A stretch of 45,896 bases of DNA from a virus. Below the pieces are notes generated by a model, which was not told the DNA's origin, did no database searches, and saw only the letters and a program-made list of their open reading frames with translations. The DNA is taken from positions 1-45,896 of the IMG/VR virus record IMGVR_UViG_3300032217_000441. One strand, 5' to 3'. Shown here in pieces: positions 2,328-45,677 of the stretch. The translations under genes and the position numbers were made by a program. The stretch's first letter is position 1, and each line of letters starts with the position of its first letter.

Positions 2328-3851
2328 ATGGCGACTTACAACCGCCCAGGTGTTTACGTAACTGAACGCCTACTTCCTGCACAAGTTGTATCAGGAGGAA
2401 CTGCTCAAGCAGCAGGTGCTGTTATTGCACCTTTTGCAAAGGGACCTTCAACTTTAAAACTTGTCAGTTCTTGGTATGAATTTACCAAGTACTTTGGTGG
2501 CTACAACGCTGCCTATCCAGCAACATTCCAAGTTGGAGCGTTTTTCCAAAATGGTGGTCGTGACCTATACGTTTGTCGTATGCTTCCATCGGATGCTTCA
2601 TCCGCTATTGTAGCAATTGGACGTGCTTCAGGTCAAGGAACAGTTGCTACAGTAACTGCAAAAAATAAAGGAATGGATGGAACTAACCTTCGTGTTAAGT
2701 TCACTGCTGGTTCTTTTGGTACTGGATACTACGACTTCACAGTTTACTTAGAGCAAGTTGCTGGAACTTCATCTGACGTTTCAAACGACTTAGTTCTTGA
2801 AAACTACGAAAACATAGTCCTTAATTCAACAACTTCAACTGATTATCTTCCAACTGTTGTTAATCTTGTTTCTGAGTACGTATCAGTTGTTGTATCAGAT
2901 AACGTGAATGCCCCATCACTAGCGGTATATCCTTTAGCGGGAACTGGCTTAGACGGGTCATCACTTACTCTTGCTACATATACAGATACTTCAACTGGTC
3001 CTGCTGTTAAGTTAGCAGCAGTAGACCGTCCATTAGTTATCTTTATGCCAGCATTGTGGACAACAATTACTGAGTCAGATGCTGACGATGTTTACAACAC
3101 AATAGCAGCGTTTGCTGCAAGTAATGGCAAGCATTATGTTGTTGCTGAAACGAAGGCTGGACTTACTCCAGCACAAGCAATTACCGCAGCAGGTCTTCTT
3201 GGAGTTACAAGCCACGAAGCCGTTTATTACCCTCATTACTATATCTCAGACCCAGTTGGACGCAGTAGCAGTGCTATTCGTTTAATTGGACCTGCTGGTG
3301 CAATTGCGGGTGTTTACATGAACACAGATGCTACTACTGGTCCTTTCAAGGCTCCAGCAGGACTTGGAACAACTGTCCAAGGTGCAATTGCTGTTGAAAG
3401 AGCGTTTACAAATGCAGAACTAGATAGCCTTAATGCTGCTACTTCTCCAGTAAACCCAATCCGTCAAATTCCAGGTGCAGGTATCTCAGTAATGGGTGCA
3501 CGTACTTTGAAGCAAGATGGAACTGCAAACAAGTACGTAAACATGCGTCGTTCCCTTATTTACTTAAACAAAGCACTATCTGATGCAACTCAGTTTGCTA
3601 TGTTTGAGAACAATGACGAACGTCTTTGGGCACGTATCAATACACGAATCGTTTCAATTTTGAACGACTACCGTAACCAGGGAGGACTTCGTGGTGTAAC
3701 ACCAGCAGAGTCTTTCTTTGTAAAGTGCGATGCTGAAAACAACACAGATGAATTAATTGCACAAGGTCAAGTAAACATTGAAGTTGGAGTTGCTTTGCAA
3801 TACCCAGCAGAATTTGTGGTCATCACCCTTAGCCAGAAGACTCTAGTCTAG
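2328..3851 (+). CDS. Contractile tail sheath protein
   Basis: The 507-residue protein forms the contractile outer sheath whose shortening drives the tube into the host envelope. Its N-terminus (MATYNRPGVYVTERLLPA) is the classic PGVYV start of sheath proteins, where the strand exchanges with neighbouring subunits. The C-terminal domain (NQGGLRGVTPAESFFVKCD, then INIEV-like and QYPAEFVVITLSQ) matches the conserved tail sheath domain. The middle region, around residues 90-230, is a variable surface insertion rich in Ser, Thr and Val. A strong AGGAG ribosome site lies 9 bases before ATG 2328. The tube gene follows immediately, as expected. Confidence 0.93.
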   Translation: MATYNRPGVYVTERLLPAQVVSGGTAQAAGAVIAPFAKGPSTLKLVSSWYEFTKYFGGYNAAYPATFQVGAFFQNGGRDLYVCRMLPSDASSAIVAIGRASGQGTVATVTAKNKGMDGTNLRVKFTAGSFGTGYYDFTVYLEQVAGTSSDVSNDLVLENYENIVLNSTTSTDYLPTVVNLVSEYVSVVVSDNVNAPSLAVYPLAGTGLDGSSLTLATYTDTSTGPAVKLAAVDRPLVIFMPALWTTITESDADDVYNTIAAFAASNGKHYVVAETKAGLTPAQAITAAGLLGVTSHEAVYYPHYYISDPVGRSSSAIRLIGPAGAIAGVYMNTDATTGPFKAPAGLGTTVQGAIAVERAFTNAELDSLNAATSPVNPIRQIPGAGISVMGARTLKQDGTANKYVNMRRSLIYLNKALSDATQFAMFENNDERLWARINTRIVSILNDYRNQGGLRGVTPAESFFVKCDAENNTDELIAQGQVNIEVGVALQYPAEFVVITLSQKTLV

Positions 3852-16447: not shown

Positions 16448-18652
16448 GTGGCAAAGTACACGGGTGCGATATTTCATGGAGCCTATTATGGTCAGGCTCC
16501 ACGACTTGTCCTGTCTTCAGAACCTATGGCTGCTTATGCCATGGACTACGACCAGGTTTGGGTTTTATGGAATCCACCATCAGGTGACTTTACAAAAATT
16601 CGTTTAGTAAGAAATAACGATAATTACCCAGAAACTCCAGAAGATGGATTAATTCTTTGGGAACAGTCTTCAACAACCAACATTTCTGGAAAAGTTGAAC
16701 GTGACCGTTTTTATGATGGTAAAGATAACTTTTTAGATGCTGATACAAAGAATGACTACTACCCACCAACAGGTCAGTTTGTGTATTACACCATGTGGAT
16801 TTTTACAAGCGGAAACCTTTGGAAACAATCTGGTTTTGCAGCAACCGTTGTTCCTAAAGACTTTGGAAGTCAAGACAGATTATTTGAAATGCTTCCAAAA
16901 GTTTATACAACAGATGACCAAACACCCACAGGAATACCAAATAAAGACTCTTTTGTTTACACTTTTTTAAAACCATTTTCTTTTTCTTATGATGAAATAC
17001 TAACCTACGCTTCCTTGTTAAAGCCTTCCTACGGAAAAAGAACAACTCCTCCACAATTACTTGGTGTTCACCAATTAAACCTTGGACTATACCCAGAACG
17101 TGGTTTGCCAAATAAAAACCAAAAGAAATTAATTAGAGAAGGCGTTTATCTATACAAAAACAAGGGGACGTACTTAGGGGTATCTGGTTATATAGAAACA
17201 CTTACTGGTTATGCACCTACGGTAACCGTATCTCCAAACCTTCTTTTAGATGTTCAAGACTCTTCGTTTACCAACGGTATAGGACGTTGGACAAAAACAA
17301 ACGGAACACTGACCTCTGTAAGTAATAAAACAGCACCTACTGGAAATAATGCTATTGAAAAAACGTACTCTGGTCGATTTGTTACCTCTGCATCAGTAGT
17401 AACTTTTAAGGCAAGAACTACAAACGTAGCAACTCTTACCCTTAGTGCTCCTCACGGATTAGACGTAGGAGACTCCATCATTGTTACAGGAGTTGATTCA
17501 ACTTTTAACGGCACATTTACCGTAGCATCAGTTCCAACCACAACAAAAATTACTTATGCCAATACAGACGTAAACGTAACTCAAACAGCAGCAACTGGAA
17601 GTGTTACCAATACTTCAAGCATCTTTTTAGGAACAGACGCACCACGAACAAAAGGAGTTCCAGTAACTGCTGGTGTTTCTTATAAATTCTCTTACTACGC
17701 TGCTTCTGACTCAAACGGTAACGTTGAAGGACGTATTTACTGGTATGACGAATTAGGTGTTCAAATTGGTTCTCCCGCAGTAGGTGTTGAACTTGGAACA
17801 ACAGGCGTTTACCAACGTAAAGAACAAACCGCTACTGCTCCTACAGGTGCTGTATATGCTGGTTTTCGTTTAAAGTTTAGAACTCAAAACTCATACAACA
17901 TTGACTGTGTTCAAATGGCACCTGCAGCAACTGCAACAAATTACGATGAGGCAAGAGGACTAGACATCTTCCTTGAGCCACGTAAAGTAAACATTTTAGG
18001 TAACCCATCATTTGAAACAAATGTAACTGGGTGGACTACAAACTCATCAACAAGCCGTGTTGCTGATGTACCACCAGGACTTCCAGGAACCTATTCCCTT
18101 AGACTTTCTGGTCAAACAAACCTCTCTATTTCTACAAATACAAACACATATCCGTCGACATTTAAGTTAACGCAGGGTCTTTTCTATACAGCCTCTGTGT
18201 ATATGAAGGCTTCGACTAACTCAACTGTAACAATGACTTTAGTTGCAGATGATGATGACTCTACAAACGTAGTAAATGCAACTTCAACGTTGTCATTAAC
18301 CTCAACATGGAAAAGATATGAGTTAAGTCTTTACATTCCAGAAGACCTATCAACAACTGGCAACATAACTATGACACTGACTATTAACGGAACCCTGTCT
18401 TCTTCTTCCGTAAATGTGTGGTTAGACACAGCACAGGTAGAAGCAGGTTTTAATGCTACAGATTACTTTGACGGCTCTTTACCTGCATCAAGCGGTGTTT
18501 ACTGGTCAGGTACTGCACACGCCTCATACTCTTACTTTTACCAAAGCCGTACTATCAAAATGGCTCGTCTTTTAGACAGCCTTAGTCAGTGGGTACCTAT
18601 GGGAACCCAGTGGCGTGTCCGTTCCTACAAAGGCGAAGAGGGTACTTCCTAG
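16448..18652 (+). CDS. gpI-like baseplate protein fused to carbohydrate-binding modules
   Basis: The 734-residue protein starts at GTG 16448, with only a weak ribosome site in the 10-base gap. Residues 1-130 are a beta domain (YDQVWVLWNPPSGDFTKIRL). Residues 145-260 contain LFEMLPKVYTTDD, PFSFSYDEILTYASLLKPSY and LIREGVYLYKNKGTYLGVSG, which match the tail protein I family of baseplate wedge tips (P before Y.xxD, then KGtxxgi). Two beta-sandwich modules follow: one around residues 265-500 and one around 515-680 with NPSFETNVTGWTTNS. The second is the hallmark NxSFE..xxGW of family 4/9 carbohydrate-binding modules. It probably carries receptor-binding at the wedge edge. Confidence 0.75.
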   Translation: MAKYTGAIFHGAYYGQAPRLVLSSEPMAAYAMDYDQVWVLWNPPSGDFTKIRLVRNNDNYPETPEDGLILWEQSSTTNISGKVERDRFYDGKDNFLDADTKNDYYPPTGQFVYYTMWIFTSGNLWKQSGFAATVVPKDFGSQDRLFEMLPKVYTTDDQTPTGIPNKDSFVYTFLKPFSFSYDEILTYASLLKPSYGKRTTPPQLLGVHQLNLGLYPERGLPNKNQKKLIREGVYLYKNKGTYLGVSGYIETLTGYAPTVTVSPNLLLDVQDSSFTNGIGRWTKTNGTLTSVSNKTAPTGNNAIEKTYSGRFVTSASVVTFKARTTNVATLTLSAPHGLDVGDSIIVTGVDSTFNGTFTVASVPTTTKITYANTDVNVTQTAATGSVTNTSSIFLGTDAPRTKGVPVTAGVSYKFSYYAASDSNGNVEGRIYWYDELGVQIGSPAVGVELGTTGVYQRKEQTATAPTGAVYAGFRLKFRTQNSYNIDCVQMAPAATATNYDEARGLDIFLEPRKVNILGNPSFETNVTGWTTNSSTSRVADVPPGLPGTYSLRLSGQTNLSISTNTNTYPSTFKLTQGLFYTASVYMKASTNSTVTMTLVADDDDSTNVVNATSTLSLTSTWKRYELSLYIPEDLSTTGNITMTLTINGTLSSSSVNVWLDTAQVEAGFNATDYFDGSLPASSGVYWSGTAHASYSYFYQSRTIKMARLLDSLSQWVPMGTQWRVRSYKGEEGTS

Positions 18653-18670
18653 TTGTAGTAGGATGCGGTT

Positions 18671-18919
18671 ATGGAAACCATAATCGACTTAATAATCGCA
18701 ACATCGTTTACATCGTTTTTTATTGGTGCAGTAGATGCGTTCTACGACCTTAAAAAGTTCAAGGGATTTTTAGCCCTTGCATTATCCGCAGGTGTCTTTT
18801 ACCTAATTGGATATCTTCCTTACGACCTCATCATCATGGCACCCGCAGGAGCCTTCTTGTCCCTTGCTGTTATGATGCTTTTAGAAAAACCAGTAGCAGT
18901 AACAACCCGTCGCCTCTAG
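18671..18919 (+). CDS. Small three-helix membrane protein, holin candidate
   Basis: The 82-residue protein has three hydrophobic segments, at about residues 4-24 (IDLIIATSFTSFFIGAV), 31-48 (FLALALSAGVFYLIGY) and 52-71 (LIIMAPAGAFLSLAVMMLL). A single charged linker (DLKKFKG) and a basic tail (TTRRL) bound them. Size and topology fit class I holins, and the end of the tail module is a usual site for lysis genes. No endolysin gene is adjacent in the window, so a different membrane role is possible. Ribosome site TAGGATG, 5 bases before ATG. Confidence 0.5.
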   Translation: METIIDLIIATSFTSFFIGAVDAFYDLKKFKGFLALALSAGVFYLIGYLPYDLIIMAPAGAFLSLAVMMLLEKPVAVTTRRL

Positions 18920-18928
18920 GAGAATAAA

Positions 18929-19396
18929 ATGCCAAGACTATTAGTAGTTGGCACTTCCGATGATGTAGATGTAACCCACGGTTTTCGTTTGCTATTAGCA
19001 AAGAAAACAATCAGTGAGGTTATTTTGCCATCGGCAGAACCAAACGAAACACATGACCAAGTACTTATTACAGCATCTGAACAAGGTATTCCTGTAAGAA
19101 CAGGTGACGACCTTATGGCTGTTCTTGAATCACTAGATGAGGCAGACCTCGTCGCCGTGGCATGGGATGACTCAGATGAGTGCTTTGATGTTATTGAGTG
19201 GTCAGCAGGTAAGAAGAACGAGATTTGGGATATCTCCGATGGTCTCAACCTTATTGACATGGAGACAGCAGTACTTGAGGAACGTTTAGAGGAAGTCCTA
19301 TCAGACTTCACTGACACCCTCATCGCTGTGGTCTACAAGATGGTCATGGACCAGATTGACGAAGATGGAAAGCGCAAGTACCGTCGCCCAGAATGA
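18929..19396 (+). CDS. Acidic alpha/beta protein of unknown function
   Basis: The 155-residue protein starts with a hydrophobic strand, MPRLLVVGTSDD, and alternates strands and helices, including LITASEQGIPV and ADLVAVAWDDSDECFDVIEW. That is a plausible Rossmann-like fold, but no nucleotide-binding glycine motif was found. The C-terminal 45 residues are helical and acidic (EERLEEVLSDFTDTLIAVVY). The base composition here and in the next gene is more GC-rich than around it. It overlaps the initiator gene (ATGA) and may act at replication onset. That is position only. Confidence 0.55.
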   Translation: MPRLLVVGTSDDVDVTHGFRLLLAKKTISEVILPSAEPNETHDQVLITASEQGIPVRTGDDLMAVLESLDEADLVAVAWDDSDECFDVIEWSAGKKNEIWDISDGLNLIDMETAVLEERLEEVLSDFTDTLIAVVYKMVMDQIDEDGKRKYRRPE

Positions 19397-20340
19397 ACAT
19401 CCCTGACGAACTCCTAGAGGCGGAACTGACTCACTATCAGTTCCGTCTCTTAGTCGTACTGTGCCACTTAGCAGACCGCAAAGGTGTCATAGAGACTTCA
19501 GTGGGTCATCTCGCCGCCCTGACTAAGGTCTCAGCACAGAGCCACGTCAAAGCCTCTCTGAAGGCTTTAGAGGACGGGGGCTATCTCGTCGCTACGAGGC
19601 GAAAACGCAATAGGGGCCTCTATACGACTTCGCAATACACCTTGTGTGGGCCTCTACAGAGGCTAACGTCCATAGGCTCTAGTGAGCCTCCACAGAGGCT
19701 AACAACACATGAACCAGATGGTCTAGTGCTCCTACCTAATAGTCATATAGTTAATAAGTTAATAAGTAATGAAAATATAAAAATACAAAAAGTGGATGGG
19801 GAGACCATGAACAAGTCTTGGAAACAAGAGCAGCAGCAGGATGAGCAAGTGGGCGGAATTGGAAAGTTTGCCGACGAGTCACCGAGGTCCACGCCCTCCA
19901 AGAAGGACACCAAGACCCGAGGCAAGCGACCCGTGGCAGAGTGGACAACCCGTGATGTTGCAGCAGAGTTCTCCTTCCTTGTAGGTCGTAAGTTCCCGTG
20001 GCTGCCAGGCACCGTGAATGTAAACCATCTGGCGGGAGCACTCGCAAAGATGCGGAAGCAATACCAAACGACAGCCCTGGTCGAAATGGAAATCCTTAAG
20101 ATGTTTATGGTGGACGAGAAGAACTTTAAAGATGTTGGCGATGAGGCACCGCACCTCTACAAGCGATACCTAGCAATGTTTAGAACTCACATGAACAAGG
20201 CACGAGAAAACCAAGGACTCACCAATCCAGTAGATGACGAGGGCGAGCAATTCGTCTATGCTTCTGACGGTCGGGCATTTGATAACACCATTGTTGGACG
20301 AAAGTATTTAGAGCGATACGAGGGGAAGATTAATGGCTAA
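19393..20340 (+). CDS. Winged-helix replication initiator-like protein
   Basis: The 315-residue protein has an N-terminal winged helix at about residues 1-75: LTHYQFRLLVVLCHLADRKG, then TSVGHLAALTKVSAQSHVKA with a recognition helix and wing (ALEDGGYLVATRRKRNRGLY). A polar, low-complexity linker (about residues 80-170, with EQQQDEQVGG and SKKDTKTRGKR) follows. Then comes a helical C-terminal domain (TTRDVAAEFSFLVGRKFPW) that could bind the helicase loader or helicase. Family resemblance is to DnaD/RepA/lambda-O type initiators. A helicase loader, helicase and primase follow. The linker-coding DNA holds palindromic repeats and an AT-rich tract, described separately. Confidence 0.65.
   Translation: MNIPDELLEAELTHYQFRLLVVLCHLADRKGVIETSVGHLAALTKVSAQSHVKASLKALEDGGYLVATRRKRNRGLYTTSQYTLCGPLQRLTSIGSSEPPQRLTTHEPDGLVLLPNSHIVNKLISNENIKIQKVDGETMNKSWKQEQQQDEQVGGIGKFADESPRSTPSKKDTKTRGKRPVAEWTTRDVAAEFSFLVGRKFPWLPGTVNVNHLAGALAKMRKQYQTTALVEMEILKMFMVDEKNFKDVGDEAPHLYKRYLAMFRTHMNKARENQGLTNPVDDEGEQFVYASDGRAFDNTIVGRKYLERYEGKING
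19614..19792. repeat. Candidate replication origin: iterons plus AT-rich tract inside the initiator gene
   Basis: Copy 1 (19650-19667) is GCCTCTACAGAGGCTAAC and copy 2 (19686-19703) is GCCTCCACAGAGGCTAAC, 18 bases with one mismatch and 36 bases apart. Each contains an inverted repeat: copy 1 is GCCTCT-AC-AGAGGC, copy 2 is imperfect. A partial copy, GGGCCTCTA, begins at 19614, about 34 bases upstream. A further inverted repeat, GGCTC-TAGT-GAGCC, lies between them at 19675-19688. About 35 bases downstream begins an AT-rich tract (19737-19792, roughly 84% A+T) containing a tandem GTTAATAA repeat (19750-19765). This architecture matches lambda ori. Confidence 0.65.
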
Positions 20341-20536
20341 GAAAAAACAAGACCTACCAGTCTTTGCAATAGTTGATATGCCAAAGTGGAAAGCCAAAAT
20401 TATTGATGTTGTTACAAGCATCTTGTTTCCAGGTGAGAAGTATTTTGTACTAACAATTGTTGAGACAGGAATGACATCAAACGGCAAAGGTAAATACACA
20501 GACGACAGAGGTATCTCCGTTGACCTATCAAATTGA
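20333..20536 (+). CDS. Small protein between initiator and helicase loader, unknown
   Basis: The 67-residue protein overlaps the end of the initiator gene by 8 bases and the loader gene by 17. It has a basic head (MAKKKQDLP), a strand-rich middle (VFAIVDMPKWKAKIIDVV) and a C-terminal hairpin (SNGKGKYTDDRGISVDL). The region resembles a small beta-barrel, but the length is too short for an ordinary SSB. It is conserved in position only. Function unknown. Confidence 0.55.
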   Translation: MAKKKQDLPVFAIVDMPKWKAKIIDVVTSILFPGEKYFVLTIVETGMTSNGKGKYTDDRGISVDLSN

Positions 20537-21236
20537 TGAACTAGAACCCGCCAAGAAGCGGTGGATACTTAACAACTCAAACATCCCTCGGCGGTTTATG
20601 GGATTAGAACCTGATGACATGCTGACGCAGTTCCCACCCATCATTGAGGACTGGCTTGAGGACATGCTGACAGGCAACTGCATTAAGACTGTCGGTGGTC
20701 TAGGGCAGACTGGTGTTGGACTTTTGTTTGATGGCGGTCCTGGTCTTGGTAAAACAACCCACGCAGTTGTTGCAGCGATGGAGTTCATTCGTCGTTTAGA
20801 CCTTGAGAAGGCTAAAGATGTACTTCAGTATTCAAATCAATCTGACTACGGTCTTATGTCACGACCTGTGTACTACCTGACATACCCCGAGTTCTTGTCA
20901 CGAAAGAAAGCCACTTTTGATGCCGATGCTGAAGAAAAACGTGAAATGAATCGTCAGATTGAGGGTTTTCACGGACGTGCTAAAGAAGATTGGTTAAACG
21001 TTAGACTGTTGATATTGGATGACCTTGGTAAGGAGTACGGTTCTAAATACGACGACGCATCATTTGATGAGATATTAAGAAGCCGTTATGACCGTGCACT
21101 CCCTACAATAGTAACTACCAACGAGATGCTGGAAAATTGGTCCGCCAAATACAGCATGGCGATGGCAAGTTTTGCTAACGAGGCGTTCCATAGAGTTCGA
21201 CTTACTGGTAAAGACTTACGGAGGGCTAAAGGATGA
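20520..21236 (+). CDS. Helicase loader (DnaC/IstB-like AAA+ ATPase)
   Basis: The 238-residue protein has a Walker A motif at residues 72-79 (GGPGLGKTTHA, K78) and a Walker B near residue 167 (LLILDDLGKEY). A sensor-1 type NEML follows TIVTTNEMLENW, and there is an arginine-rich finger region near AFHRVRLTGKDLRR. These are the features of DnaC/DnaI/IstB ATPases that load DnaB helicase onto DNA. The start is TTG 20520; the next in-frame ATG, near 20598, would remove the conserved N-terminal helix. The gene overlaps its neighbours by 17 and 4 bases. It is the lambda P analogue in this module. Confidence 0.82.
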   Translation: MTYQIDELEPAKKRWILNNSNIPRRFMGLEPDDMLTQFPPIIEDWLEDMLTGNCIKTVGGLGQTGVGLLFDGGPGLGKTTHAVVAAMEFIRRLDLEKAKDVLQYSNQSDYGLMSRPVYYLTYPEFLSRKKATFDADAEEKREMNRQIEGFHGRAKEDWLNVRLLILDDLGKEYGSKYDDASFDEILRSRYDRALPTIVTTNEMLENWSAKYSMAMASFANEAFHRVRLTGKDLRRAKG

Positions 21237-21532
21237 AAGGCTCAAACTTGGATACGTGGCGTACAGTGCAAGTGTTCCTCTCACCGACAGGTGTGTACGA
21301 GGTACAACTACGTCCTAACGACACTAACGCACAATGCTCTTGTCCCTCTTACAAGATTAGAAACAAGTGCAAGCACACAATGTTTGTAACTGCTCGCATG
21401 GCAGAGAACGATGGGCACTATGCAATCCTTGTTCCAGATGATGTACCTGAAGAGATTGCAGATAAAGCAAACGAGAGTGCAGAGTCATTCCGTGAATTTG
21501 TTTTAAAGTACGCAAGAGTTGAGGTCCTATGA
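21233..21532 (+). CDS. SWIM zinc-finger protein
   Basis: The 99-residue protein contains a SWIM-type zinc motif, C35-x-C37, then C46-x-H48, in CSCPSYKIRNKCKHTMFV. SWIM domains bind DNA or proteins and are found in recombination and helicase-associated proteins. The strand before it (GVYEVQLRPNDTN) matches the usual SWIM beta hairpin. The C-terminal half is acidic and helical. It overlaps the loader gene by 4 bases (ATGA) and the following gene also starts with ATGA. A role in replication or recombination is inferred from the neighbours. Confidence 0.7.
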   Translation: MKGSNLDTWRTVQVFLSPTGVYEVQLRPNDTNAQCSCPSYKIRNKCKHTMFVTARMAENDGHYAILVPDDVPEEIADKANESAESFREFVLKYARVEVL

Positions 21533-21948
21533 GGGGTGGAGATATCTCCAATGAAACCCCTCCCCGTTTAATTGTTCTTGCTGACGTAGTTGCAGAACGT
21601 GTAGAAGTTACAGAACGAAAGTTCATTATTTCTAAAGAAACTTCTCTAAAGTTAAAGAACGTTAAAAAGGCAGAGGTTTACCAGTTGTGGATTCTTACAA
21701 ACAAGTACGGCTTGTCTGTAGAACTTGCTGGGATTGAAGAAAACGGATGGGACAAAGAGTCCCTAGATAAAGTCATGGACATTTTAGATAGACGTGGTGG
21801 CAATCCATTTAACCTTGCCCAAACATATATAACGACACAAGAGTTAGTAGATGATTTGCCATATCGCATAAATTTAAAAGGTGTGGTTGACTTACCAACT
21901 CGCAACGCAATGTACGGCTCATGGGGTATTGACTTAAGTAGGCTTTAG
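21529..21948 (+). CDS. Hypothetical protein in replication operon
   Basis: The 139-residue protein has a strand-rich start (RLIVLADVVAERVEVTER) and alternating helices (KAEVYQLWILTNKYGLSVE, ESLDKVMDILDRRGGNPF). The C-terminus includes LKGVVDLPTRNAMYGSWGID. No catalytic signature was recognised. It lies between SWIM and DnaB-like genes, overlapping the former by 4 bases and separated from the latter by 15 bases, so it probably belongs to the replication complex. Function unknown. Confidence 0.55.
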   Translation: MRGGDISNETPPRLIVLADVVAERVEVTERKFIISKETSLKLKNVKKAEVYQLWILTNKYGLSVELAGIEENGWDKESLDKVMDILDRRGGNPFNLAQTYITTQELVDDLPYRINLKGVVDLPTRNAMYGSWGIDLSRL

Positions 21949-21963
21949 AGAAAAGATGGGGCA

Positions 21964-23214
21964 ATGGCAGCAGATAACGAGCATCGTTTAGTAAGCAAAG
22001 TAATTAGAGACCGAGACATACTCCCCGCAATACAACAAGGAATCACAAGTGATTGGTTTCTTGATGAAGACAACTCACGTGTTTGGAAGTTTGTTGTTAA
22101 GCATTACACCGAGTACTCAGAAGTACCTACTGCTGTAACTGTTAAAGACCACTATCCAACTTACAAAGTTTTAGATGTACAAGACTCGTTAGATTTTCTT
22201 GTTGACCAAGCAGTTGCGTTTCGTCGCAAGTTATTGGTTCGTCAAGGTCTTGAAGACTCAGTTGATAAATTAACTCATAACGACCATGAAGGTGCATTGG
22301 TTGCTATGGAAGGAACTATTACTCGTGTAAACCTTCAAGGCACTAAAGGCACAAACGAAATTGATTTAGTTAAAGATGCAGAAGACCGTTTTTCTGAGTA
22401 TCAAGCACTTGCTAATCACACAATGCTTGGTATTGCTACAGGTTTTTCAAAAATGGATGAAGCAACCGCAGGTCTTCAAGGTGGTCAGTTAATTACAATC
22501 ATTGCTCCACCTAAAACAGGTAAGTCTCAGATTGCTATGGCTGTTGCAATCAATGTTCATAAGCAAGGAAAGATGCCTATGTTCCAGTCTTTTGAGATGA
22601 CAAACCGTGAACAACAACAACGTCACGATGCTATGCGAGCACAGGTATCTCACGGAAGACTTCGTCGTGGAAAGATGTTTCAAGATGAAGAGACACGTTA
22701 TTTAGACATGCTAAAAGACATGGGTCAAATGCAAACACCTTTCCATTTGGTAGATGCAGTTAACGGCTTAACAGTTGCTTCTTTATCTGCAACAATATCT
22801 AAGTTAAAGCCAGAGGTTGTATTTGTAGACGGTGTGTACTTGATGATGGATGAGCAGACAGGAGAGATGAACACACCTCAATCAATTACAAACGTTACTC
22901 GTTCTCTCAAGCGTTTAGCACAACGTCATGACATACCCGTTGTTATAACCACACAGACTTTGTTGTGGAAGATGCGTGGAGGAAAGGTAACCGCAGACTC
23001 AATCGGTTATTCCTCCTCTTTCTTTCAAGACTCGGATGTTATTTTTGGTTTAGAGCCTGTTCCAGATGTAGAGGACATGCGTAACTTTAAGATTGTTGCA
23101 AGCCGTAACTGCGGTCCTCAAGAAGTATCTATGGTTTGGAATTGGGAGACAGGTTGCTTCCACGAAGAGAGCACAATGCACACATGTGTTTTGTGTAAGC
23201 GAGGTTTGATGTAA
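21964..23214 (+). CDS. Replicative DNA helicase (DnaB/gp41-like)
   Basis: The 416-residue protein has an N-terminal helical domain (about residues 1-150) and a RecA-type motor domain. Walker A is APPKTGKSQIAMAVA near residue 181. The next conserved stretch is MFQSFEMTNREQQQR, then the Walker B, EVVFVDGVYLMMD. Later features are DIPVVITTQTL and QDSDVIFGLEP. These are the DnaB helicase motifs H1-H4. The motor would unwind the fork ahead of the polymerase. The extreme C-terminus ends in CVLCKRG, a possible zinc half-site. One-base overlap with primase. Confidence 0.85.
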   Translation: MAADNEHRLVSKVIRDRDILPAIQQGITSDWFLDEDNSRVWKFVVKHYTEYSEVPTAVTVKDHYPTYKVLDVQDSLDFLVDQAVAFRRKLLVRQGLEDSVDKLTHNDHEGALVAMEGTITRVNLQGTKGTNEIDLVKDAEDRFSEYQALANHTMLGIATGFSKMDEATAGLQGGQLITIIAPPKTGKSQIAMAVAINVHKQGKMPMFQSFEMTNREQQQRHDAMRAQVSHGRLRRGKMFQDEETRYLDMLKDMGQMQTPFHLVDAVNGLTVASLSATISKLKPEVVFVDGVYLMMDEQTGEMNTPQSITNVTRSLKRLAQRHDIPVVITTQTLLWKMRGGKVTADSIGYSSSFFQDSDVIFGLEPVPDVEDMRNFKIVASRNCGPQEVSMVWNWETGCFHEESTMHTCVLCKRGLM

Positions 23215-24176
23215 TGACTGTTGATATTCCACAAGTATTAGAAAAATTAAGTATTGAAGTTATTCGTGAACGTGGCGATGAAATTCTTTCGTTCTGTCCA
23301 ATGCACAAGGCTCGTACTGGCAAGGAAGACCACAATCCTTCTTGGTGGATAAATCAAGAAACAGGTGCACACATTTGTTTTTCATGTGGTTGGAAAGGCA
23401 ACGTATTTTCTTTAGTCGGTGAAGTTAATGAGTTTTACTTAGGTGAAGTCATTGACTACGAACAAGTTAAGCAATGGTTAGCAAACCTTGGTGAAATATC
23501 TATAGAAGAACTAGGAGAACGACTAAAGCAAATGCCTACCTATGTATCTGTAAAACAAGAACTACCAATGAACGAAGCAAGGCTGGCATTGTTTACAGAC
23601 CCACCACAATGGGCTTTAGATAAACGTCGTATAACTTTAGAGGCAGCAAAAAAGTACGAAGTATTGTGGCGTGAAGATGACACCTGGATTTTGCCAATAA
23701 GAAGCCCTAGCGATTACACATTGTGGGGTTGGCAAGAAAAGGGAGAAGGAACACGTAGTTTTAAAAACTACCCTGCAGGTGTAACAAAGTCGAAAACATT
23801 ATTTGGTGCTCACGAACACAACCCAGACATGGTTATTGTGGTTGAGTCCCCACTAGATGCTGTGCGTATTTCGTCTGCAGGAATTGTTGGAGCAGTTGCT
23901 TCCTTTGGTGCAATGGTTAGCGAAACCCAAGCCAAGTTACTGCGATACAGCGACATAGTTATTGCAGCCTTTGACAATCCAAAGATTGATGCTGCAGGTA
24001 AGAAAGCCTGTGAAGAGATGATTGTCAGTGGCAAGAAGTACGGTATGACAGTGAAGTTTTTTAACTACGGGGACACAGGCATCAAGGATGTGGGTGATAT
24101 GACCGATGAGCAGATAAGGTTTGGATTGGATAACGCTAAGGACATGATTTATGGAGAGGCAGCCTACTTAGGATGA
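23214..24176 (+). CDS. DNA primase with CHC2 zinc finger and TOPRIM domain
   Basis: The 320-residue protein starts with a CHC2-type zinc finger: C28 and H31 (FCPMHKA), then C55 and C58 (CFSCGW). The middle carries a linker region (LFTDPPQWALDKRRITLEAA, WGWQEKGEG). The TOPRIM domain has E211 in VIVVESPLDAV and DNPKID in IVIAAFDNPKIDAAGKKACE, which replaces the usual DxD pattern with DNPKID. It would synthesise RNA primers with the adjacent DnaB-like helicase. It begins on the TAATG overlap after helicase and ends on ATGA before the next gene. Confidence 0.85.
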   Translation: MTVDIPQVLEKLSIEVIRERGDEILSFCPMHKARTGKEDHNPSWWINQETGAHICFSCGWKGNVFSLVGEVNEFYLGEVIDYEQVKQWLANLGEISIEELGERLKQMPTYVSVKQELPMNEARLALFTDPPQWALDKRRITLEAAKKYEVLWREDDTWILPIRSPSDYTLWGWQEKGEGTRSFKNYPAGVTKSKTLFGAHEHNPDMVIVVESPLDAVRISSAGIVGAVASFGAMVSETQAKLLRYSDIVIAAFDNPKIDAAGKKACEEMIVSGKKYGMTVKFFNYGDTGIKDVGDMTDEQIRFGLDNAKDMIYGEAAYLG

Positions 24177-44159: not shown

Positions 44160-45677
44160 ATGAGAATCATTTATGGCGGTTCTGAAGTTGGAAGTAACCG
44201 AACACTCTTAGAGGCAATGTCTGTAGAAGTTATGGGTTTCTCCTTCTATGCTCTTAAGAAACGCTACCTTCCAAAGAACAAGTTATGGCTTGTTTCTGAA
44301 CACTTCCCAGACGGGGTCCAGGTAGTTCTTGACAGCGGTATTCACCAATTAGAAGGTTCGGGGGCTTCTAAAGAAGAAATAACTTCTTTTGCTGCCGAGT
44401 ATCAAGAGTTTGTGGCTAACAACCTGGAACGCATCTCTGGCTTTGTGGAGATTGACTCTCAAATCATGGGGTTGGACTGGGTACTTCAGCAAAGAGCCTT
44501 CTTTGAGCATGACCCCAAACTTTGGGTAGTCTGGCACGACTCCTACGGGCTTCAGAGCCTCAGAGAGTGGTCTAAGACCTATCGAAACGTGGCTATACCC
44601 CACGCCTCTATTGAGGCTTCTACGAGCCTTGCAGGGGTCACTAGAGCACTGGTTTCCCAGCAGGGGACACGCTTCCACGCTCTAGGCTCTGCCAAGCCTG
44701 ACAACCTCCGTCAGATACCTTTTATCACCTCTACCACCCTTTCTTGGCTTAGTCCTATGCGTAATGGAGAAACAATCATTTGGGATGGTAAGCAGGTTGT
44801 CCGTTATCCAAAGAAGATGATGGCTCAAGCAAGACCCCGTTACAAAGCCGTAGTGGGTAAAGCAGGACTAGACTTTGAGAAGTTCCTAGAGAACGATGGG
44901 GTTGAGTCCTCTAAAGTAGCAGTGTGGTCATACCAACAGTTGGAGAAGTCAATGGATAAGAAACGCCCTGATTTGCACGTTGTAGATGGTGGAAAAGAGC
45001 CTCTATTATCTGATAACAGCGATACCCCCCTTATGAGTACTTTTGCGGAAACATGGGGGGATGCTTCTGATAACAGTGCCCTAGACATGCGGAAACAATC
45101 TGCGGTTGAAGAGCCTAAAAAGTTGGTTGAAAGAGACCCGCAAGAGGTTACAAGCCTCCCTGTTTTTGGGTACAAGATGAAGACCATTGTGGATGTAGAT
45201 GACGAGGGTAACGAGATACTTAAAGACGTTCCAATGGTGCAAAGCACAGGGGCTTCTTTACGTCAATGTGACACTTGCTTTGTTGCTGCCAACTGTCCAG
45301 CCTTCAAACCTCAGAACACTTGTGCCTTCAACTTGCCTGTTGAGGTAAAGACAAAAGACCAACTAAAAGCATTGCTAAACACTGTTATTGAGATGCAAGG
45401 AGCAAGAGTTGCCTTCTCTAGGTTTGCGGAAGAACTCAATGGCGGTTACCCTGACCCCAACACATCACAGGAAATTGACCGTCTTTTCAAACTCGTAAAG
45501 GGCATGAAAGAGTTAGAAGAGAACCGAGAGTTCATTAGAATTACTGCTGAACGGCAGTCGTCAGGAGGGGTACTTTCAGCCATTTTTGGTGACAGAGCAC
45601 AGGCTCTAAAAGACCTTCCAAACGGTGGTTTGAGCGAAGCAGAGACCACAAAAATCATTCAACAAAGTCTTGAGTAG
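44160..45677 (+). CDS. Possible TGT/DpdA-like TIM-barrel protein with C-terminal Cys domain
   Basis: The 505-residue protein starts 2 bases after the HAD-like gene. Residues 1-225 alternate strands and helices like a TIM barrel: VQVVLDSGIHQLEGSG, WVVWHDSYGLQSL, RFHALGSAKPDNLRQIPFI and TSTTLSWLSPMRNG. The H-x-LG and S-W-L phrases resemble tRNA-guanine transglycosylase-like DpdA proteins. The catalytic Asp pair is not clear, so this is tentative. Residues 255-340 are polar. A C-terminal Cys cluster (C-x2-C-x5-C-x8-C, QCDTCFVAANCPAF) could bind zinc or iron-sulfur. If DpdA-like, the phage may modify guanines in its DNA. Confidence 0.5.
   Translation: MRIIYGGSEVGSNRTLLEAMSVEVMGFSFYALKKRYLPKNKLWLVSEHFPDGVQVVLDSGIHQLEGSGASKEEITSFAAEYQEFVANNLERISGFVEIDSQIMGLDWVLQQRAFFEHDPKLWVVWHDSYGLQSLREWSKTYRNVAIPHASIEASTSLAGVTRALVSQQGTRFHALGSAKPDNLRQIPFITSTTLSWLSPMRNGETIIWDGKQVVRYPKKMMAQARPRYKAVVGKAGLDFEKFLENDGVESSKVAVWSYQQLEKSMDKKRPDLHVVDGGKEPLLSDNSDTPLMSTFAETWGDASDNSALDMRKQSAVEEPKKLVERDPQEVTSLPVFGYKMKTIVDVDDEGNEILKDVPMVQSTGASLRQCDTCFVAANCPAFKPQNTCAFNLPVEVKTKDQLKALLNTVIEMQGARVAFSRFAEELNGGYPDPNTSQEIDRLFKLVKGMKELEENREFIRITAERQSSGGVLSAIFGDRAQALKDLPNGGLSEAETTKIIQQSLE

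Follow-up and report, generated by a model that had tools for sequence, protein, structure and literature searches.

Comparative evidence for a probable replication origin nested in the initiator gene of an uncultured phage

The DNA analyzed here is the 45,896-base phage record IMGVR_UViG_3300032217_000441, from an uncultured phage (the window, to whose whole length all coordinates refer), and the element in question is a probable replication origin carried within a gene for a winged-helix replication initiator (Table 1). Two 22-nucleotide direct repeats (iterons), 91% identical and 36 nucleotides apart, are located in the part of this gene that encodes the linker between its two domains, and each holds the palindrome GCCTC-YACA-GAGGC. 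The motif GCCTCYACAGAGGC was matched without mismatch only at these two iterons in the 45.9-kb window, and long contigs of the window's class each have a single cluster of the repeat pair. Using a measure that scores pairs of palindromic repeats, the initiator gene was found to score 26, a value that none of 3000 synonymous recodings preserving protein and codon usage could reach (maximum 24); the 25 other open reading frames of the window scored 24 or less. As a positive control, the measure recovered the annotated iterons of the lambda O gene with a score of 24.5. The score was not significant in a few relatives (L010, L016, L018 and L064), where the assignment is based on position and direct inspection. 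The two repeats with internal inverted repeats at 19650 and 19686 that had been described in the original prediction, made from the letters of the window, were therefore confirmed against both recodings and other reading frames. The tract of about 84% A+T reported to follow the repeats is also real; positions 19747-19791 are the most AT-rich 45 nucleotides of the window (89% A+T). Wherever ENIKI is encoded (24 genes), its codons are always GAAAATATAAAAAT[ATC].

Table 1. Features of the initiator locus, with positions in the window
Feature	Position	Strand	Details
Initiator gene	19393..20340	+	315 amino acids; from alignment, winged helix at residues ~10-85, linker with origin at ~86-135, conserved C-terminal domain at ~165-315
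Recognition helix of winged helix	19537..19575	+	Residues 49-61, QSHVKASLKALED region; AlphaFold2 model
Iteron 1	19646..19667	+	GTGGGCCTCTACAGAGGCTAAC; palindromic core 19650-19663; equivalent pair in relatives
Strong synonymous-site constraint	19657..19782	+	Most of iteron pair and AT tract
Iteron 2	19682..19703	+	GTGAGCCTCCACAGAGGCTAAC; palindromic core 19686-19699; equivalent pair in relatives
AT-rich tract, probable DNA unwinding element	19741..19790	+	86% A+T; tandem GTTAATAA at 19750 and 19758
Possible second product, C-terminal domain alone	19807..20340	+	177 amino acids; putative internal start at Met139
DnaC-like helicase loader	20520..21236	+	phrog_50, E 2e-27
DnaB-like replicative helicase	21964..23214	+	phrog_19, E 3e-57; PF03796
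DnaG-like primase	23214..24176	+	phrog_47, E 2e-31; PF01807 and Toprim domains

Selection at the DNA level was assessed with relatives at 41-98% identity, taken from viral contigs. Among 22 sequences, synonymous change was close to that expected along most of the gene and fell to 0.06-0.45 of expectation at approximately codons 90-133; over most of 19687-19782, in the AT tract and the second iteron, it was only 6-20% of expectation. The lowest 20-codon block (19741-19782) showed an observed-to-expected ratio of 0.08 in a reduced set, and none of 5000 column permutations was as low. Much of the constrained segment is poorly conserved at the protein level. An overlapping gene as the source of this constraint was rejected, as every alternative frame is closed in the segment in at least 86 of the 87 genes of the wider relative set (distinct genes with both domains); the constraint therefore acts on DNA or RNA as such. 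Conservation of the repeats in relatives despite codon freedom had been proposed as a check, and this check proved decisive: synonymous sites at the repeats are nearly frozen, and the repeat sequence co-varies with the recognition helix across the 87 genes. Absence of the repeats from close relatives, which would have counted against the original prediction, was not observed.

Two further elements of the original prediction did not withstand this comparison. The partial repeat copy at 19614 consists of just 9 nucleotides, at a place where relatives have GGTTTCTACA and where the DNA encodes a conserved RG[LF]Y. The extra inverted repeat between the iterons (AGGCTC-TAGT-GAGCCT, 19674-19689) is incidental, being intact only in the window and the 98%-identical relative L001 and already broken in L002. 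Both were rejected as further sites, as was a motif match at 44604, for want of conservation or support. The palindrome at 44604-44617, GCCTCTATTGAGGC, has perfect arms, is located inside a queuine tRNA-ribosyltransferase-like gene (44160-45677) and is kept in the close relative G001.

Further analysis of the 87 relatives, with repeat classes defined from the DNA alone, showed that their repeats form six classes and that the motif of the recognition helix predicts the class. Genes with an SHVK/R helix have GCCTC..GAGGC repeats, genes with RNTVRE have ATGCCCTC, those with HE[KR]TVRR or SEKTVRR have GGAC..GTCC, those with [TNG]EKTVRR have GGGCC..GCCCA, those with SD[KR]TVR have repeated ATTACC(GCAC) and those with SDSTVRR have CTGTCACC. 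Even close helix types differ in their repeats, HE[KR]TVRRG being found with GGAC..GTCC and TEKTVRRG, NEKTVRRG and GEKTVRRG with GGGCC..GCCCA. In one ATTACC-class gene the helix pattern picked out the wrong segment (AGSEGHLKAS), so that this gene speaks neither for nor against the match between helix and repeat. On the winged-helix tree, 6 changes of repeat class are needed (the minimum possible is 5), as compared to 12 on the C-terminal tree; these counts are indicative, since many forks in both trees have weak support. Between L093 and L090, and likewise between L143 and L103, identity is 94-95% for the C-terminal domain and 61-64% for the winged helix. In such pairs (e.g., L093/L090), DNA identity drops to 48-65% over the helix and the repeats, and the shared AT module that follows is again 98-100% identical. 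Winged helix and iterons thus appear to have been inherited or exchanged together.

The initiator itself matched PHROG families for replication initiation, namely phrog_270 (3e-8) and the O-like phrog_345 and phrog_678 (2e-4 to 3e-4); no Pfam family, RepA_N included, was matched at E up to 0.001. An AlphaFold2 model of residues 1-85 is a winged helix with a mean predicted local distance difference test (pLDDT) score of 84, exceeding 90 across most of the fold, and its Foldseek matches are winged helix-turn-helix proteins, including the plasmid initiators 5kbj and 4pt7. The full-length model is poor (pLDDT 51), and no claim is made for the C-terminal fold. The loader is found downstream of the initiator in 111 of the 112 loci whose flank is long enough, and helicase and primase were found in all 15 loci with sufficient flank for these. 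The predicted order of initiator and origin, loader, helicase and primase is thus borne out both by the PHROG and Pfam families and by the relatives' loci. By comparison, the prediction that the initiator gene stands directly upstream of the loader was right as to order but not as to adjacency, as an open reading frame for 67 amino acids (20333-20536) sits between the two; two small open reading frames also separate the loader from the helicase.

Cumulative GC skew, a further check proposed with the original prediction, pointed in the same direction. Skew rises across the locus in all eight contigs analyzed, with a step whose rank falls within the top 1-17% of positions (6% on average). In seven of the eight, cumulative skew has a local minimum within 1 kb of the locus, though the global minimum is found elsewhere in every contig.

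Taken together, these observations suggest, with a probability of roughly 0.88, that the locus is a phage replication origin of the lambda/SPP1 type, located within its own initiator gene, in the part that encodes the linker. The original prediction is supported and right in substance. By analogy with lambda, a mechanism can be proposed in which two initiator dimers act at the iterons. A dimer would probably bind each palindrome via its winged helices, with residues 49-61 as recognition helix; the bound initiator could bend or wrap the DNA, and the adjacent AT tract (19741-19790) may then melt. The conserved C-terminal domain would bring in the phage DnaC-like loader, which would load the DnaB-like helicase encoded by the phage onto the opened strand, with the phage primase following the helicase.

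Several points weigh against this interpretation. The locus is a local skew minimum and never the global one (0 of 8 contigs), and the eight contigs are related and incomplete; for these reasons the skew result is supportive only. The C-terminal domain had no sequence match among solved structures, which leaves the proposed contact with the loader unsupported. Two iterons are present here as compared to four in lambda, although two were reported to be sufficient there (PMC7466680). Finally, co-variation of helix and repeats would by itself also fit an operator.

The most probable of the alternatives is an operator. In this explanation, the palindromes form an intragenic operator through which the winged-helix protein represses or attenuates its own operon, while replication starts elsewhere. 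Pairs of palindromes that co-vary with the protein suit any self-recognized site, and the structural neighbors of the winged helix found by Foldseek are mostly regulators of the MarR/PadR type. However, no promoter-like site was found near the repeats, and promoter- or terminator-like sites were not enriched. Moreover, the AT tract, which an operator would not need, is under DNA-level constraint equal to or stronger than that on the repeats, the PHROG matches are replication initiators and the gene is linked with those for loader, helicase and primase. Regulation of this kind in place of an origin is considered improbable. It is less probable still that the constrained segment works as RNA, through mRNA hairpins or a regulatory element. 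The repeat pair does fold better than shuffled sequences as RNA (z = -2.6), and in L084-type relatives a compensatory hairpin follows closely on the downstream side, but this hairpin is missing from the subfamily of the window, a search of Rfam gave no match and the constraint extends over the AT tract, which has no strong structure. In addition, certain classes consist mostly of direct repeats (ATTACCGCAC), and sites of the ATGCCC class are poor hairpins but good protein half-sites. Least probable of all is a partition or other structural (centromere-like) site bound by the winged-helix protein, to which one Foldseek neighbor, the plasmid centromere-binding protein 4rs8, would point, since no ParA-type ATPase was found among the genes scanned (16448-24176), all of which encode replication proteins or proteins without an identification.

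Beyond iterons and AT tract, the relatives carry other conserved elements, which are leads and not results on the origin of the window. LVPN in the linker is encoded as TTAGTACCTAAT in all 88 genes that encode it. An inverted-repeat box, ATTAGTACCTAAT, is found in the linker of 81 of the 87 relatives, independent of repeat class; five contigs measuring 76-100 kb each have a single occurrence of TTAGTACCTAATA. The TTAGTACCTAAT box is missing from the small clade to which the window belongs. A second conserved palindrome, TGACTATRRGTCA, is located between the iterons and the TTAGTACCTAAT box in 50 of 63 L084-type genes. On the right-hand side of the AT tract, with little variation in position, all 63 L084-type genes (e.g., L097 and L142) have a stem-loop with a stem of 5-10 base pairs and a mostly purine-rich loop of 3-6 nucleotides; such a structure was matched by just 1.3% of synonymous recodings. 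As about 15 different stem sequences occur at this one position, the stem-loop can be considered compensatory. Genes of the window type are without it. In all 24 of these, a strong Shine-Dalgarno sequence precedes an invariant Met139 (19790-19809 in the window), with a mean of -8.1 kcal/mol as compared to -2.4 for other internal methionines and -5.7 for synonymous recodings. An internal start at Met139 is therefore probable from these sequence features, and a product with the C-terminal domain only is possible. For plasmid pIGRK, a truncated in-frame initiator that antagonizes replication has been described (PMC6854812) and offers a precedent.

A two-part origin module could be envisaged from these leads, although we regard it as tentative and as a whole rather doubtful. 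In such a module, phages would exchange the winged helix jointly with its cognate iterons, and the TTAGTACCTAAT box, the AT tract and, in most relatives, the hairpin with its conserved structure would stay with the C-terminal domain. As single-stranded DNA, the hairpin might offer a landing site to loader, helicase or primase, and the internal start might supply a C-terminal-only protein that tunes initiation.

With respect to the phage itself, neither the initiator nor an L084-type member of the family had a match among 50,697 annotated phage records. Bacterial and archaeal genome contigs likewise yielded no relative, and thus neither a host nor a prophage. Judged by loader, helicase and tail sheath, the nearest cultured phages are Streptomyces phage BRock and its kin. 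Tail sheath (2328-3851) and helicase are approximately 29-39% identical to their counterparts in these phages. The window thus looks like part of an uncultured myovirus lineage distantly related to the BRock group of actinobacteriophages. The hypothetical genes upstream of the loader in BRock (gp120) and Alone3 (gene 106) neither matched a PHROG family nor contained a significant palindromic pair.

Intragenic origins are already known from lambda, SPP1 and RepA_N plasmids, and the locus described here is a strongly supported further case of a known kind, for which the comparative support is unusually strong. The family supplies 87 natural pairs of initiator and origin with at least six putative binding specificities. 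Among the [HTNG]EKTVRRG types, H as opposed to T, N or G just before EKTVRR tracks the switch from GGAC to GGGCC repeats. A recognition code for the winged helix and the exchange of origin specificity consequently become directly testable, and the TTAGTACCTAAT box and the compensatory hairpin hint at origin elements beyond initiator binding alone.

Among the known systems, lambda has its origin in the O gene, where O dimers attach to inverted repeats of 19 bp and an AT-rich stretch is opened (PMC5043065); two iterons and the AT region were reported to suffice for unwinding and for replication in vitro (PMC7466680). The window shares with lambda an origin within the initiator gene, as suggested by anatomy and DNA-level constraint, iterons that are imperfect palindromes (dimer-bound in lambda; PMC5043065, PMC7466680), an AT-rich tract directly 3' of the iterons and a loader gene that comes next. 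Lambda O and the initiator may be distantly similar, as both match the families phrog_345 and phrog_678, the initiator with weak hits. In contrast to lambda, which uses the host DnaB, the window encodes its own DnaB-like helicase and a primase, its loader is DnaC-like (phrog_50) rather than a lambda P, and its subfamily has no clear inverted repeat to the right of the AT tract. Lambda carries GTCAGAG/CTCTGAC arms, as read from its sequence, at a place comparable to that of the L084-type stem-loop. The designation lambda-like therefore holds for the origin anatomy but not for the gene set, in which initiator, loader and own helicase are nearer to gp38, gp39 and gp40 of SPP1. In that phage, oriL is located inside the gene for gp38, the protein that binds it, and gp38 acts together with the loader gp39 and the helicase gp40 (PMC6316719). 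A probable intragenic origin together with phage-encoded initiator, loader and DnaB-family helicase (PMC6316719) makes SPP1 the nearest parallel in gene content, even though SPP1 has a second origin, oriR, whereas one repeat cluster and no second origin was seen here per long contig of the class to which the window belongs (the contigs may be incomplete), and SPP1 uses the host DnaG, whereas the window has its own primase. Among plasmids, the RepA_N initiator pSK41 Rep has 319 amino acids, an N-terminal winged helix, origin boxes in the linker-coding part and a separate C-terminal domain (PMC5703833). The initiator of the window resembles RepA_N initiators in size, winged helix and probable linker origin, and 5kbj and 4pt7 are among its Foldseek matches. 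It differs from them in that the Pfam RepA_N domain was not found in it and in its setting, a phage replication operon as compared to a plasmid replicon controlled by antisense RNA.
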